Shown here: piece after piece, positions 2,983 to 7,392 of the stretch
How positions within the stretch are numbered: the first letter of the stretch is position 1
Layout of the letters: each line of letters opens with the position of its first letter
NCBI GenBank assembly: GCA_017462125.1
Contig: JAFTRQ010000118.1
Span: 1-7,392, forward strand
Reading direction: 5' to 3'
DNA: 7,392 nt
Source of the DNA: Clostridia bacterium
Lineage (GTDB): Bacteria > Bacillota_A > Clostridia > Oscillospirales > CAG-272
The notes under the pieces: model-generated
Told to the model about the DNA's origin: nothing
Seen by the model: the letters and a program-made list of their open reading frames with translations, nothing else
The model's database searches: none
Made by a program: the position numbers and the translations under genes

Positions 2983-5900
2983 ATGAAACACAACCAAATC
3001 AAGCTACTTTCCCTGCTATTGGCGCTAGTCATGGCAGTGGGCATTCTTGCCTCCTGCAAGGGGCCTGAATCGGACACCGAGGTCGAGAGCGAGCTCCCCA
3101 CCGAGACCGAATCGGCTACGGTATCCGACACGGAGCAGACCACCGAAGCCGAGAGCGATGCTATTGAGCTCGAGACCGTAAAGCCCTACGTCTCCCATCT
3201 CGAGGGCGGCGACAGCGCGCTGATCGAGCTGGCCGACTACTTAAAGAACAGCGTAAACTCCTACTTTACCGATTCCTCCCGTACCGCGTTCGTGATGGAG
3301 AACCAAACGGTCTCGGTCACCTACGATATGGAGAGCACGGGCGCTAAGCAGGTGGCAAGCATCAAGACCCCCGGCGGCAAGACCTACATTGAGAACACCA
3401 TGGACGTCTTCCTGCGCATGAAGGACGGCAGCACCTACCTTGCATCGGGCTCTGCCGATGACAGCACGGCAAACATCTACCGCTTGGGTTACTACTATTA
3501 CGACAACCGCATCGAGGGGCAGAGCTTTGTTGGCGAGCCCAATATCACAAAAGAGCAGGCCATCAACCATCTCGCAGTAAAGCGCTTCAATATGACCAAG
3601 CTGGTCTCCAAGAAGAACGATATTCTCAAGGTGAAGGTCACCGACAACGAGGACCCCTGGCTCTCCTTTGCCAAGGTCAACTTCTCTGCCGAGGAATACA
3701 ATATGCTCAGCGTCACCGTGAAGGCGGACGCGCAGTTCTCGGGCACGGTGGGTCTTTACATCATCGCGGGAGAGGCTTCGGGCAGCGAAAACTTTACAAG
3801 CAGCCAATCCTCCTCCTTCAGCATCAACACCGACGGTGAATTCCACACCTATCTGATCCCTCTTGAAAGCATCAACGATTACAACGGCACGGTGACGGGC
3901 ATCCGATTCGACCCCAACACCAACCGCGGCGCCATCGACGCTACCTTTGAGATCAAGGAGCTGAAGGCTGTGAAGGTGGAAAGCAACGGCGCGCCCATCG
4001 ACCCCAAGGTCAGCCGCCACTTCGGTATGTATTCCGACAAGCTGCACCAGACCCTTCAGATCACCACCCACAAGGACGTTGAGGGCGTGGATGCCATCGG
4101 ATTCATCACCCGCATCGACGCGGCAACCGTTGACAAGATCATCCTCAAGGATAAAAACGGAACCCATGAAAGCCTTGACGGCGCAGATATGGCAAGCCTT
4201 GAATACATCGGCTTTGACATCAAGGACGCGGGCGTATTCGGTCTGATCCTGCCCTACGACGGCGCGGGCGGCACCATGAGCGTGTCATTGACAGACGGTC
4301 AATACGTGATCACGCAGGAAAAATCCCCCGAGGGCGGCAAGCTGATCGCCGCTGTGGAGGGCTCCAAGAACGCCGACGACTTCTATATGGGTCACCGCAT
4401 CTACAACGATTACACCCACGACTTCGACAGCTTCCTCAAGGCCGCCGAGGAGGAAAGACATCCTCTTGGCGAGGAAAACTTCATTATAGACGAGGATGCC
4501 TCCACCTTCGGAGATTTCGTATGCTACGATTCCCTGCGCGGCATCTACACCCTGAAGATCGACGGTGTGGACGGCTTCTCCCCCCACTACCTGCTTCACA
4601 ACAACCGTCAGTACAACGTGACCTTCACCGTCAAGGGTGACGGCAGACAGATCTATCTGATGGCGCAGTACGACGGCGGCGCGCTGGAGTGCGCGGCGAT
4701 CCTCAATGCCGACGGAATGCTGATCCCCGTTCCCCTTGAGGTGGGCAAGAACTTCAGCGATGCCACAAGCTTCTTCGACGTGGACGACGCGCGCTTCAGC
4801 GAGACCATCCTCCCCATGATCGCATCCAAGGAGGAAAACACCTATTCCATCGTCAACATCTATCACAAATGGGGCGCGTATCTCTTAAAGCAGATCTCCT
4901 TCATCACCTACTACGCTCCCTATTACCACCTTTCCACAGGTGTTCACGAAAGCAACTGTATCATTCCCTACTATTTCACAAAATCCGGCAACAACCTCAA
5001 TATGCTGCCCGACCACAGAGCGATGTCCTCGCCTCTCTGGAACACCGACCCCCAGCACACCTACTGCGGTAACCACTACTATCTGCAGTACACCGATGCC
5101 GAGGGCAACTACAGCGCAAGCGAGAATATCCGCGACGTGATAGGCTCGTACGGTCCTACCTATGCCGACGTGACTATGGATTATATCTCCTACGACGGCA
5201 AGATAAAGGTCACCTATAATCATATGGAGATGCCTCAGACCGACGAGAACCGCGCTTACTACGAAATGAAATACGAGGTGCTTGAGGATATCAGCTTCGC
5301 CGATTTCCTCCACGATTTCTCCTTCTACAGCGCCACCAGCAACGACCCCACAGGCCTTTACACCAAGGTTGGTTACCTCGATCAGAACAACAAATCGCAG
5401 GTGGCGACCGCCGCTATGGGTGACGAAAGCTTTACCTTCGTCCTCGGCGACAATTGCCCCTACGTTTCCTTCTTCGATATGCCCGACAGCACCGACACCC
5501 GCGGCTACTCCAACCTCTCCTTCTTGATCTACAACTACAGCTTCACCATCGGCGGCAAGGCGGCAGAGCCCTCCTTCGCGGTGGTCAATACCCACGGTAA
5601 GATCGCGATCTCCCTGAATCTTGGCGAGGTCACGTTGAAGGCAGGCGACAGCTTTACCGTCAACGCCATCATCATGCCTTGGGGCTCGCAGGAATCCGAC
5701 TATTCGGGCGCGGCTCCCGACAAGAACGTCCGCGACGTGAGAGAAAACACCCTGCTTGATCCCGTCAAGGCAACTCCCGTGGCAGATTGCGAGAGCGTTT
5801 CCACGGTATTCCTCCCCGCTGTCAAGACCACCAACGGCAAGAGCGCCGAGTTTACGCTCAGCGGCGGTGAAAACAATATCACGGTGCGCGTCTTTGGCTT

Positions 5901-6726
5901 CAACAAGCTGACCGTTCCCGTCATCGAGGAAAAGATCGACGGCAAGTGGACGGAGGTCAAGCTTTCCTCGATCCACACCCCCGACGGCATGGGATACGGC
6001 TATCAGTACGACGGCTATATGGTATTTTATGACGGCGACGGCACCTTCTCCTACTCCTTCGTCACTACTATGAAGGACGGCGCCGAGCGCACCTTCCGCG
6101 TGACCGCCGACACCGATTTCGACGGCTGGAAGGAGGTTGTGGTCGAGGATAAGGAGCCCTTCTACTTCGACGCGGAAACCATCGCGCTCCGCGCAAAGCA
6201 GAATCCCCGATTCACCAAGGTCGAGCAGCTTGAGGAGAACGGCAATGCCTTCGTCCGCTTCGCAGGCTCCACCTCCGAGGCGTACGTCTCGTTCTTCGCA
6301 GACAATAAGGAGGTCACAGGCGACCTTCTGGTGATCAAATACCGCGTTCCCGCAAGCAATCCCAACAATCTTGCCTCCTGGAACTTCTTCACAAGCACGG
6401 TCAACAACACCCCCGTGGCAGCGGATTCCCATTGGGCGGCAGGTATGATCGTCTCGGACGGCCAGTGGCAGGTCATTGTGGTCGATATTTCGGGTCACGG
6501 CAAGGAAAGCTTCAAGGCAAACAGCGACGGAACCTATTCCGTCAACTATCTCCGTCTCGACATCTTCAACGAGGCGGTCAACGCGGCAACGGTTTGCGAC
6601 ATCGAATACGTTGCGCTCTTCGACAGCATGGACGAGGTCTGGGCGCACAACGCCGATATGGCGAAGATCATGCTCTGCACCGCGCAGGAGTCCTCCGAAT
6701 ACCTGACGAACCCCTCCGCAGAGTAA
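2983..6726 (+). CDS. Very large secreted lipoprotein with two carbohydrate-binding-like regions, function unknown
   Basis: A 1247-residue protein I cannot place in a named family. Residues 1-25 form a lipoprotein signal peptide: basic start, leucine-rich core, lipobox LASC with Cys25 as lipidation site, so it should be anchored outside the membrane. Residues 28-66 are an acidic Thr/Glu/Ser linker. Residues about 195-335 and about 1055-1215 each look like a jelly-roll, carbohydrate-binding-like domain; both share a DG(E/Q)-aromatic strand followed by an I/L-R/D strand and a closing hydrophobic strand. The 340-1050 core is beta-rich and aromatic, with clusters of Tyr/His/Trp around 628-705. Eight further cysteines are spread from 514 to 1232. 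The ATG at 2983 follows AAAGGAT by about 10 bases. Codons strongly prefer C endings, leaving long stop-free shadows on the other strand. A role in binding or degrading a surface glycan is inference from the domains and the upstream AraC regulator. Confidence 0.85.
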   Translation: MKHNQIKLLSLLLALVMAVGILASCKGPESDTEVESELPTETESATVSDTEQTTEAESDAIELETVKPYVSHLEGGDSALIELADYLKNSVNSYFTDSSRTAFVMENQTVSVTYDMESTGAKQVASIKTPGGKTYIENTMDVFLRMKDGSTYLASGSADDSTANIYRLGYYYYDNRIEGQSFVGEPNITKEQAINHLAVKRFNMTKLVSKKNDILKVKVTDNEDPWLSFAKVNFSAEEYNMLSVTVKADAQFSGTVGLYIIAGEASGSENFTSSQSSSFSINTDGEFHTYLIPLESINDYNGTVTGIRFDPNTNRGAIDATFEIKELKAVKVESNGAPIDPKVSRHFGMYSDKLHQTLQITTHKDVEGVDAIGFITRIDAATVDKIILKDKNGTHESLDGADMASLEYIGFDIKDAGVFGLILPYDGAGGTMSVSLTDGQYVITQEKSPEGGKLIAAVEGSKNADDFYMGHRIYNDYTHDFDSFLKAAEEERHPLGEENFIIDEDASTFGDFVCYDSLRGIYTLKIDGVDGFSPHYLLHNNRQYNVTFTVKGDGRQIYLMAQYDGGALECAAILNADGMLIPVPLEVGKNFSDATSFFDVDDARFSETILPMIASKEENTYSIVNIYHKWGAYLLKQISFITYYAPYYHLSTGVHESNCIIPYYFTKSGNNLNMLPDHRAMSSPLWNTDPQHTYCGNHYYLQYTDAEGNYSASENIRDVIGSYGPTYADVTMDYISYDGKIKVTYNHMEMPQTDENRAYYEMKYEVLEDISFADFLHDFSFYSATSNDPTGLYTKVGYLDQNNKSQVATAAMGDESFTFVLGDNCPYVSFFDMPDSTDTRGYSNLSFLIYNYSFTIGGKAAEPSFAVVNTHGKIAISLNLGEVTLKAGDSFTVNAIIMPWGSQESDYSGAAPDKNVRDVRENTLLDPVKATPVADCESVSTVFLPAVKTTNGKSAEFTLSGGENNITVRVFGFNKLTVPVIEEKIDGKWTEVKLSSIHTPDGMGYGYQYDGYMVFYDGDGTFSYSFVTTMKDGAERTFRVTADTDFDGWKEVVVEDKEPFYFDAETIALRAKQNPRFTKVEQLEENGNAFVRFAGSTSEAYVSFFADNKEVTGDLLVIKYRVPASNPNNLASWNFFTSTVNNTPVAADSHWAAGMIVSDGQWQVIVVDISGHGKESFKANSDGTYSVNYLRLDIFNEAVNAATVCDIEYVALFDSMDEVWAHNADMAKIMLCTAQESSEYLTNPSAE

Positions 6727-6807: not shown

Positions 6808-6835
6808 TAGGGGAACTTTTGAAAAAGTTCCCCTA
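6808..6835. repeat. 13-bp perfect palindrome with two-base tip
   Basis: TAGGGGAACTTTT (6808-6820) and its exact complement (6823-6835) flank GA. The right arm is part of the 36-bp direct repeat. There is no T-tract after either arm, so it is not a typical terminator. Similar GGGAACTTTT-type palindromes are, from memory, scattered in intergenic DNA of gut Clostridia; this needs a search. Confidence 0.75.
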
Positions 6836-6853
6836 TAACCCCTCAAAACTTTC
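6818..6853. repeat. 36-bp direct repeat, copy 1
   Basis: Identical over 36 bases to 6926-6961, 108 bp downstream. It begins TTTGAAAAAGTTCCCC and ends CCTCAAAACTTTC. Its ends are themselves partly complementary (GAAAAAGTT near the start and AACTTTC at the end), so each copy can also fold on its own. Confidence 0.85.
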
Positions 6854-6925
6854 CCAAAAAACAAGCTCCGTTTGCGTGTTGAAGCGAAGTGAAGACCAAT
6901 TTCATCATTGCAGGCGAAGAGATAC

Positions 6926-6961
6926 TTTGAAAAAGTTCCCCTATAACCCCTCAAAACTTTC
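6926..6961. repeat. 36-bp direct repeat, copy 2
   Basis: Exact second copy of 6818-6853. Unlike copy 1 it lacks the complementary left arm of the palindrome: the bases before it read GATACTTTG rather than GGGGAACTTTTG. It looks like a truncated member of the same dispersed repeat. Confidence 0.85.
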
Positions 6962-6998
6962 ATAAAACAAATTATAAAAAATATTTTCCAAAAACCTA

Positions 6999-7027
6999 TT
7001 GACAAATTAATTTTTTTGTAGTATAAT
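6999..7027 (+). promoter_or_regulatory. Full-consensus sigma-A promoter upstream of the leader cassettes
   Basis: TTGACA (6999-7004), 17-base AT-rich spacer, TATAAT (7022-7027): both boxes match the consensus at all six positions, and A-tracts lie upstream as in an UP element. Transcription should start near 7034, immediately before a CGTC-GCAA-GACG mini-hairpin (7036-7047) with a GNRA tetraloop that would cap the transcript's 5' end. The strength suggests a highly expressed downstream gene beyond the window. Confidence 0.85.
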
Positions 7028-7033
7028 ATCAAG

Positions 7034-7119
7034 GTCGTCGCAAGACGGTGTATGTGGATTAGCAAAAAGCCCACCTCGGAGACCTCACTCCGTGTAAAAA
7101 TTAAAGAGGGGCTAAGAAT
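7034..7119 (+). ncRNA. Structured RNA leader, copy 1 (ribosomal-protein-leader-like)
   Basis: After the 5' cap hairpin (7036-7047) comes a two-tier fold. The inner hairpin is CGGAG (7077-7081), loop ACCTCA, CTCCG (7088-7092). The outer stem is AGCCC (7068-7072) plus CT (7075-7076) with AGGGGCT (7107-7113), enclosing an unpaired A-rich strand. The 3' arm GAGGGG is the ribosome site for an ATG at 7120. GTGG at 7054-7057 could instead pair with CCAC 7071-7074, an alternative that would free the site. The layout recalls autoregulatory ribosomal protein leaders such as that of L21, from memory and unverified. Confidence 0.5.
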
Positions 7120-7195
7120 ATGCGAGAGCAGTCGCTAAGCGACGGCGGAACGTTAGCAAACGAAGTTTGCGTAGGCAGACCGACGTTGCGAAGCC
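7117..7195. repeat. 79-bp exact repeat, copy 1
   Basis: Identical base for base to 7314-7392, an offset of 197 bp. It begins at AATATG just after the leader and contains hairpins GTCGC-TAA-GCGAC (7131-7143) and GCAAAC-GAA-GTTTGC (7156-7170). Copy 2 reaches the window edge, so the true identical length may be greater. The two leaders in front of the copies are much less similar than the copies themselves. Confidence 0.9.
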
Positions 7196-7296
7196 TTTGC
7201 GAAGCAACTCGAATAGCAAAACGAAGTTTTGCGAAAGCGCACAGCTTGAGGGGCGTGTGGTTTACACTTTTCTCCTCGGAGACCTTCTCCGTGTAA
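7120..7296 (+). CDS. 58-residue ORF spanning the hairpin repeat (doubtful peptide)
   Basis: From ATG 7120, 7 bases after the GAGGGG ribosome-like site, a frame of 58 codons runs to TAA 7294-7296. The predicted peptide starts MREQSLSDGG and ends FSSETFSV; it is basic, has no signal peptide, and matches no family I know. Most of it is dictated by inverted repeats in the DNA, and its last residues come from the second leader's hairpin sequence, so it may be incidental. If translated, the ribosome would pass through the 5' half of the second leader and could change access to the next ribosome site. Confidence 0.25.
   Translation: MREQSLSDGGTLANEVCVGRPTLRSLCEATRIAKRSFAKAHSLRGVWFTLFSSETFSV
7122..7240. 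repeat. Array of hairpins with C-GAA-G triloops
   Basis: Successive inverted repeats occur at 7131-7143 (GTCGC/GCGAC, TAA loop), 7156-7170 (GCAAAC/GTTTGC, GAA loop), 7185-7208 (GTTGC/GCAAC enclosing two TTGCGAAGC copies 11 bp apart) and 7216-7232 (GCAAAAC/GTTTTGC, GAA loop), then GC-GAAA-GC at 7231-7238. GCGAAGC itself is a known unusually stable DNA mini-hairpin. Such density suggests a non-autonomous mobile or REP-like element, or a folded RNA; which one cannot be decided here. Confidence 0.6.
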
Positions 7297-7316
7297 TAAA
7301 TCAAAGGTGTTTCAAT
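7264..7316 (+). ncRNA. Structured RNA leader, copy 2
   Basis: The inner hairpin is CGGAG (7277-7281), loop ACCTT, CTCCG (7287-7291), almost as in copy 1, followed by the same GTGTAA start. The outer stem is ACACTTTT (7264-7271) with AAAGGTGT (7303-7310), 8 bp with one G-U. Its sequence differs from copy 1 but the pairing is kept. The 3' arm AAAGGTG is the ribosome site for ATG 7317. GTGT at 7255-7258 offers an alternative partner for ACAC 7264-7267. Confidence 0.5.
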
Positions 7317-7392
7317 ATGCGAGAGCAGTCGCTAAGCGACGGCGGAACGTTAGCAAACGAAGTTTGCGTAGGCAGACCGACGTTGCGAAGCC
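7314..7392. repeat. 79-bp exact repeat, copy 2 (cut by the window edge)
   Basis: Exact copy of 7117-7195, starting at AATATG directly behind the second leader and still identical at the last base of the window. An open frame from ATG 7317 begins with the same MREQSLSDGG residues and runs off the end, in a different phase from the first copy's frame (offset 197 is not a multiple of three). Confidence 0.9.

Follow-up and report, generated by a model that had tools for sequence, protein, structure and literature searches.

The leader region of the window

The window, which is the whole 7,392-nt stretch of DNA that was analysed, carries a metallo-beta-lactamase-fold gene (1038-1766) and a large lipoprotein-like gene (2983-6726), and ends with a promoter-like site followed by two leader copies, each with a tRNA-like piece behind it (Table 1). 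The homologue of the first gene in locus L003 (57% identity) and those of the second in L083 and L088 (36-39%) also locate near tRNA-Leu(GAG) genes. Upstream of the promoter, two 42-nt repeat copies that are 95% identical occupy 6818-6859 and 6926-6967, and an inverted partner lies at 6808-6825.

Table 1. Positions of the features in the window and of the Gut-1 RNA matches in IVP loci
Feature	Sequence	Position	Strand	Details	Basis
Promoter-like site	window	6999-7027	+	TTGACA 6999-7004, 17-bp spacer, TATAAT 7022-7027	sequence
Helix P1, leader copy 1	window	7054-7074	+	GTGG 7054-7057/CCAC 7071-7074, inner GC 7062-7063/GC 7069-7070	model R3
Pseudoknot, leader copy 1	window	7077-7109	+	S1 7077-7081/7088-7092; loop CCTC 7083-7086 pairs GAGG 7106-7109; linker TGTAAAAATTAAA	
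tRNA-Leu(GAG)-like piece 1	window	7122-7267	+		by eye and alignment with the intact tRNA-Leu(GAG) loci of L008 and L066
Pseudoknot, leader copy 2	window	7277-7308	+	S1 7277-7281/7287-7291; loop ACCTT 7282-7286 pairs AAGGT 7304-7308	
tRNA-Leu(GAG)-like piece 2	window	7319-7392	+	same as piece 1 up to the window end, which cuts it	
Gut-1 (RF01706)	L142	1259-1330			
Gut-1 (RF01706)	L164	1273-1347			
Gut-1 (RF01706)	L150	1415-1485			
Gut-1 (RF01706)	L140	1845-2020			
Gut-1 (RF01706)	L147	785-858		below gathering score	
Gut-1 (RF01706)	L146	948-1034		below gathering score	

The inner hairpin CGGAG/CTCCG, which an earlier sequence-only reading of this DNA had described in both copies, was found in both and is the stem S1. 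The repeat behind each copy is a hairpin-stuffed tRNA-Leu(GAG)-like piece. Piece 1 contains the acceptor 5' strand, parts of the D arm and the anticodon arm of tRNA-Leu(GAG) together with mini-hairpin inserts, without the 3' half, and 79 nt are identical between the two pieces (7117-7195 and 7314-7392). No intact tRNA was found in the window by ARAGORN. The nearest homologue found of the window, L066 (81% identity over query 45-296), has the order of promoter, leader, tRNA-like piece, leader and intact tRNA-Leu(GAG), and L065 from the same genus has one leader and an intact tRNA-Leu(GAG). Because L066 has an intact tRNA-Leu(GAG) after its second leader, one is expected directly past position 7392.

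Homologues and their placement

The exact pattern CGGAGACCT-N(1-3)-CTCCGTGTAA was searched in the genome collection and was present in 20 stretches, 19 from Clostridia/Oscillospiraceae metagenome genomes and one from Flavobacteriales (L006). A tRNA-Leu gene is downstream in 18 of the 19 clostridial loci (17 CAG, 1 GAG), and the remaining one (L019) ends 58 nt after the hairpin, the last ~50 nt of its contig being presumably sequencing-adaptor sequence. Covariance-model searches of related genomes, suggested along with the sequence-only reading, also returned homologues, and with this recurrence the hairpin and its tail are more than a chance feature. Model R1 (42 columns) found sites in 35/395 genomes of one family (E up to 0.01) and in 11/295 genomes in the order, and the wider R2 found sites in 40/395 genomes of the same family (E up to 0.003; at least one, G317, is a chance match), 4/20 in a second family, 10/70 in a third and 16/291 in the class, these R1 and R2 tallies including matches later judged chance. 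With R3, a model that also covers P1, strict-filter searches of 398 genomes of the phylum returned the centre genome and one chance match only. On these tallies, the element is scattered within certain clostridial families. In 355 of the 395 genomes of the first family, R2 detected no element (E up to 0.003, strict filters), and the phage, plasmid and viral collections gave no match.

Both window copies are among the rows of R1 and R2. Copy 1, which is also one of the 30 rows from which R3 was built, is matched by R3 at 7052-7116 with 52.3 bits (E = 9.9e-13). Copy 2, which is not in R3, is matched at 7246-7316 with 27.6 bits (E = 4.8e-6) and two non-standard pairs, because of which its P1 is weak. 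Seven sites in six genomes lie outside the building set of R2. Those in G301, G153 (two sites) and G200 stand before tRNA-Leu; in G380 a tRNA-Leu is further downstream, behind a protein gene, in G271 a tRNA-Leu half is at the contig end, and G317 is the chance match. All 20 sites with E <=1.3e-5 in the 18 genomes that supplied the first loci were already known. For the structure comparison, 88 of 91 matches were kept over 76 sources. L006 (Flavobacteriales, no adjacent tRNA, tail not A-rich), L072, L081, L119, L125 and L133 (E 0.0017-0.0094, in or beside coding sequence) and three further matches (E 0.098-0.21) were dropped as chance.

The sequence-only reading had advised looking for a ribosomal protein gene downstream of the leader; the gene found there in relatives is tRNA-Leu. 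Outside the window, 82/86 instances have a same-strand tRNA within 450 nt, and 82/82 of these tRNAs are tRNA-Leu of the CUN box (62 CAG, 12 TAG and 8 GAG), a figure that is partly a choice, as some real sites have E values as weak as those of dropped ones and the dropping was partly by context. For the other four instances (L019, L059, L063 and L117), the available sequence stops 36-319 nt after the hairpin with no tRNA in reach. Among the matches examined, a set without G052:C19 and part of the repeat listings, every one with E <=0.001 lies beside a tRNA-Leu or half of one. The distance between leader and tRNA ranges from 18 to 320 nt and the structure is kept throughout. In direct leaders, the pseudoknot ends ~10-15 nt before the tRNA start, which is the proposed cut, and no conserved start codon or terminator was seen by inspection between pseudoknot and tRNA. 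A -35/-10 promoter-like motif is present upstream of 50/71 distinct homologous tRNA-Leu genes. The leader is missing at some tRNA-Leu(GAG) genes of leader-bearing loci (L002, L003 and L007).

Two variants of this arrangement were observed. L084 and L088 have a hairpin-extended, window-like D-arm remnant between promoter and tRNA-Leu(GAG), where no pseudoknot was seen. In L101 and L109, the pseudoknot and the intact tRNA-Leu(CAG) are separated by a tRNA-Leu copy that stops after its T arm.

The conserved fold of the leader

Most homologues share a P1 that ends two bases before S1, an S1 whose start is CGG/CCG, a UGUAAAAAU-kind linker and an S1 loop that pairs with the stretch after the linker. 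Together, S1 and the loop-tail helix form an H-type pseudoknot. Loop and tail change together among homologues, as in GTTTCT/AGAAAC, GATCG/CGGTC, CACCG/CGGTG, TAGTTTCC/GGAAACTA and GCTG/CAGC. When one instance per distinct loop was taken, at least 4 bp were present in 33/39 loops versus a mean of 19.8 and a maximum of 29 with swapped partners (20,000 permutations), and at least 5 bp in 27/39 versus a mean of 10.4 and a maximum of 19 (0/20,000 permutations reach the observed number). The summed score over 70 distinct rows was 818, versus a permuted maximum of 713. No other conserved unpaired stretch was seen by eye besides the UGUAAAAAU linker and the internal loop of P1.

A P1 helix of at least 4 bp that closes 2 nt before S1 was found in 66/85 distinct upstream stretches, versus a shuffled mean of 22 and a maximum of 29, its types being GAGG/CCTC (25), GCGG/CCGC (15) and GTGG/CCAC (8). 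The conclusion on P1 relies on this fixed-offset test (offset 2) and not on the first free search, which was weak (1082 versus a permuted mean of 1031; 44/5000 reach it). The numbers at offsets 0 and 3 (55 and 52) were likewise higher than the shuffled maxima (45 and 40), and that at offset 6 (52) was level with its maximum; helices of 5 bp number 9, 10 and 23 at offsets 0, 3 and 6, versus 44 at offset 2. On two alignments, the pair counts were reached by 0/500 shuffles, the relatedness among sequences staying in the controls here as in all the shuffles and permutations for P1, S1 and the pseudoknot. Sliding by 1-3 columns lowered the paired cells of these alignments from 94% and 92% to 46-57%. 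The comparison indicates that changes in one strand of P1, S1 or the pseudoknot are matched in the other so that pairing persists, and the leader fold looks to be kept by selection. Structural selection on a leader RNA in tandem copies, with a repeat after each, had been proposed from the window and is borne out, with P1, S1 and the pseudoknot as the conserved pairings. Free-energy folding of the window copies was unremarkable (z of -1.48 and -1.51; 18 and 14 of 200 shuffles fold as well).

The sequence-only reading had also described an outer stem around the hairpin, covarying between the copies, with the Shine-Dalgarno sequence of a following ATG as its 3' arm. The outer pairs can form in both copies (AGCCC 7068-7072 with GGGCT 7109-7113 in copy 1, and ACACTTTT 7264-7271 with AAAGGTGT 7303-7310 in copy 2), and the minimum-energy fold of copy 1 includes them, but they are not conserved as a helix among homologues. 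At least 5 bp were found in 15/39 homologues versus a mean of 18.1 with swapped partners, and 18,535/20,000 permutations reach 15. The summed score was slightly above swapped partners (460 versus 438; 683/20,000 permutations reach 460), and part of this excess is attributed to sequence shared with P1, the pseudoknot or the start of the tRNA. The GTGG at 7054, which had been regarded as a competitor for the outer stem, does lie in a helix, but this helix is P1, of which it is the 5' strand. The Shine-Dalgarno-like strand is the 3' arm of the pseudoknot and changes with its partner, and the supposed start codon consists of the A and T before the first G of the tRNA-like sequence (..AATAT followed by GCGAGAG). 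Among 46 distinct direct leaders, ATG stands at that place in 30 and Shine-Dalgarno-like letters are found in 35, which is common but not constant. Because the hairpin lengths vary by single bases, the leader is not coding; a translation switch or leader peptide was rejected for this variation and for the inconstancy of the ATG and Shine-Dalgarno letters.

No Rfam match was obtained in the window at E up to 1 when the scan suggested with the sequence-only reading was run, no Rfam family at its cut-off lies over the leader in the window and 14 homologous loci, and the 8 + 6 homologous loci gave no ribosomal-protein leader at E up to 5. The possible outer pairs, the slight score excess and the frequent Shine-Dalgarno-like and ATG letters speak for a leader of the ribosomal-protein type (L21 had been named), in which the outer stem would hide the ribosome site of an ORF. 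However, outer helices of at least 5 bp no commoner than with swapped partners, the Rfam scans, tRNA-Leu as the downstream gene and the single-base variation in hairpin lengths make this reading hardly tenable.

Repeating units and possible roles of the leader

In 30/71 genes, the 5' half of the tRNA, up to the anticodon loop, is repeated upstream with 28 or more of its first 38 bases; the number is 29 when L062 is set aside, where the supposed half is a genuine tRNA-Leu(GAG) gene. Eight more genes have only an upstream 16-nt piece; the reverse-complement control gave 1/71. The distance between half and gene is 164 nt in 10/30 and 162-165 nt in 14/30, CAG and TAG genes included. When 35 upstream pieces, three of which resemble other tRNA copies (L062, one in L101 and one in L105), were compared with the tRNA of their own gene, the D arm was the best kept part, at 0.97 identity; the acceptor strand had 0.80, the stretch up to the anticodon loop 0.89 and the sequence beyond it 0.21. 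The pieces end sharply after position 38-40. The pattern over the 35 pieces is not one of even decay, but recent duplication or gene conversion is possible. The anticodon of the piece is that of the adjacent gene in 25/35 (manual count), which fits local duplication. A re-formed anticodon stem in the upstream halves was unsupported (at least 4 bp in 23/31 versus a shuffled mean of 21.4 and a maximum of 27). D-loop hairpin inserts were seen by eye in other upstream tRNA-like pieces (L005, L051, L052, L055, L056, L115 and others), and units stand in tandem in L068, L105 and L116. The 5' half, the hairpins, P1 and the pseudoknot make up one repeatable unit, and the units of the window are of this kind, their tRNA-like parts being extended by hairpins.

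Protein genes are carried in a few units. L136 has a 23S_rRNA_IVP gene (PF05635, 1.8e-28) between a tRNA-Leu half and the intact tRNA, L002 has a YcxB-like gene (PF14317, 9.1e-9) between half and pseudoknot, and in L137 a tRNA-Leu half precedes each of three reading frames, namely an IVP gene with a PF05635 match, a second ORF and an IVP-like ORF of which the start is present. The second ORF of L137 and the YcxB-like gene of L002 share 74% DNA identity. The IVP genes of L136 and L137 are flanked by AT-rich arms that look complementary by eye. Cargo was present in 1/75 loci scanned (L002), halves with D-loop inserts being missed by the scan, and L136 and L137 were found later. IVP genes are present in 51/73 leader-bearing genomes versus 0/14 control genomes; none was seen among the ORFs of at least 60 aa in the units of the window. 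Because of the cargo genes and the frequency of IVP genes in leader-bearing genomes, an intervening-sequence-like element may be the source of the units or may make use of them.

The explanation that we rank as most likely, with about an even chance of being right, is a structured cis-acting 5' leader of pre-tRNA-Leu transcripts of CUN-box isoacceptors that would be cut off by RNase P. Its position, its covariation and its link to tRNA-Leu are apparent from the sequences; the single transcript, the cleavage and any effect on tRNA supply are inferred. The order is a promoter-like site in most cases, P1, two bases, the H-type pseudoknot with its UGUAAAAAU-kind linker, a spacer and the tRNA, and all of these would be transcribed as one RNA. 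RNase P would cut before each GCG.. start and free the unit as a small RNA, and the pseudoknot may set the rate or occurrence of processing or degradation of the tRNA precursor, thereby tuning the supply of the tRNA that reads CUN leucine codons. Counted against such a cis-acting leader are the lack of a detectable element in most genomes of the same family, the tRNA-Leu(GAG) genes without a leader, the relatedness left in the permutation controls, and the unexceptional energy folding together with the outer stem in the minimum-energy fold of copy 1; the protein genes that a few units carry suggest an element that exists in its own right.

The reading that ranks next is unlikely on balance though it deserves serious weight. 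The units would be what is left of an element, intervening-sequence-like or integrative, whose target is the tRNA-Leu anticodon loop. Such an element would keep a 5' half of the tRNA at its end and so restore the tRNA, and the pseudoknot would be its 3' end, a processing or insertion signal and not a regulator. The cargo of L136, L137 and L002 fits it, as do the tandem units and a copy number that varies among relatives (one leader in L065, two in L066). Yet cargo is rare, casual inspection showed no transposase or integrase, the agreement of anticodons between pieces and neighbouring genes fits local duplication, and P1 and the pseudoknot keep their paired changes in L098, L102, L118 and L120, loci in which no half and no cargo were found. 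Less likely still, and ranked third, the leader freed by tRNA processing would be a trans-acting small RNA that borrows the tRNA promoter and RNase P for its making. The near-constant unit length between tRNA-like starts and a structure kept whatever the distance to the tRNA are consistent with this, but the linker and the P1 internal loop are the only conserved unpaired stretches seen by eye, and occurrence only before tRNA-Leu would be needless for a free RNA. A broader proposal, which we put forward tentatively and consider possible rather than probable, is a new class of element, in which tandem cassettes from tRNA-Leu 5' half to pseudoknot precede CUN-box tRNA-Leu, are separated by RNase P and are able to carry IVP or YcxB-like genes, the pseudoknot controlling the supply of CUN-reading tRNA.

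Known examples of structured regulatory leaders stand upstream of protein genes. T-box leaders and preQ1-I-like riboswitches share with the present element a structured 5' leader; the T-box includes tRNA recognition, and in preQ1-I the fold is that of an H-type pseudoknot whose third loop is A-rich and adjoins the Shine-Dalgarno sequence. The leader also has an H-type pseudoknot with an A-rich linker, a likeness to preQ1-I in topology only; it differs from both in preceding a tRNA gene, not an mRNA, and in loop lengths and conserved letters. Rfam gave no rows for T-box, preQ1-I or group I core in the window (E up to 1) or the homologous loci scanned (8 + 6), and a group I intron in tRNA-Leu was rejected for the lack of a group I core match. 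The 23S rRNA intervening sequences with IVP (PF05635/TIGR02436) resemble the present loci in the IVP genes of L136 and L137, but the leader units lie in tRNA-Leu arrays, not in 23S rRNA, and units without an ORF are the rule in scanned loci. Truncated tRNA-like copies are shared with tRNA pseudogenes and the pseudo-tRNA of Bacillus cereus, whereas the halves here end sharply after the anticodon loop with a D arm at 97%, are tied to a pseudoknot and, in 14/30 genes, belong to units of 162-165 nt. A further likeness is to the 3'ETS-leuZ sponge RNA of E. coli, in which an external spacer transcribed with tRNA-Leu acts as RNA, but the leader is on the 5' side, structured and kept by covariation. 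Gut-1 RNA (RF01706) forms hairpin arrays in the same kind of genomes and does not match the leader itself; one Gut-1 is at L002:1252-1321, 45 nt downstream of tRNA-Leu(GAG).

The leader RNA family and its arrangement, in which units of tRNA half and pseudoknot stand before the tRNA genes of one amino acid, match no kind of system known to us, and the mechanism could be a variant of something known. No description of the leader was met in the literature searched, including passages of PMC2864571, PMC8040213, PMC8632094 and PMC11109978 and, for the 2017 survey of 224 candidate structured RNAs, its coverage in Rfam. The leader is a previously unlisted RNA of some gut Clostridia, short, strongly conserved and easily testable in vitro. 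A conserved covarying pseudoknot tied to the tRNA genes of one amino acid, within repeating half-tRNA units, would be a new layer of tRNA-pool control or parasitism.

The IVP loci themselves were also inspected (best matches, one per genome). Besides the tRNA-Leu locus L151, a same-strand tRNA is upstream of the IVP gene in 11/30 of them (L142, L143, L146, L148, L155, L158, L159, L160, L162, L163 and L164), and in these 11 a terminator-like hairpin and, in most, a mini-hairpin array were seen by eye between tRNA and IVP gene. Gut-1 was matched in 6/20 IVP loci scanned (E up to 0.01; Table 1). It may be part of the hairpin arrays of IVP loci, and in L142 and L164 it lies between the tRNA and the IVP gene.
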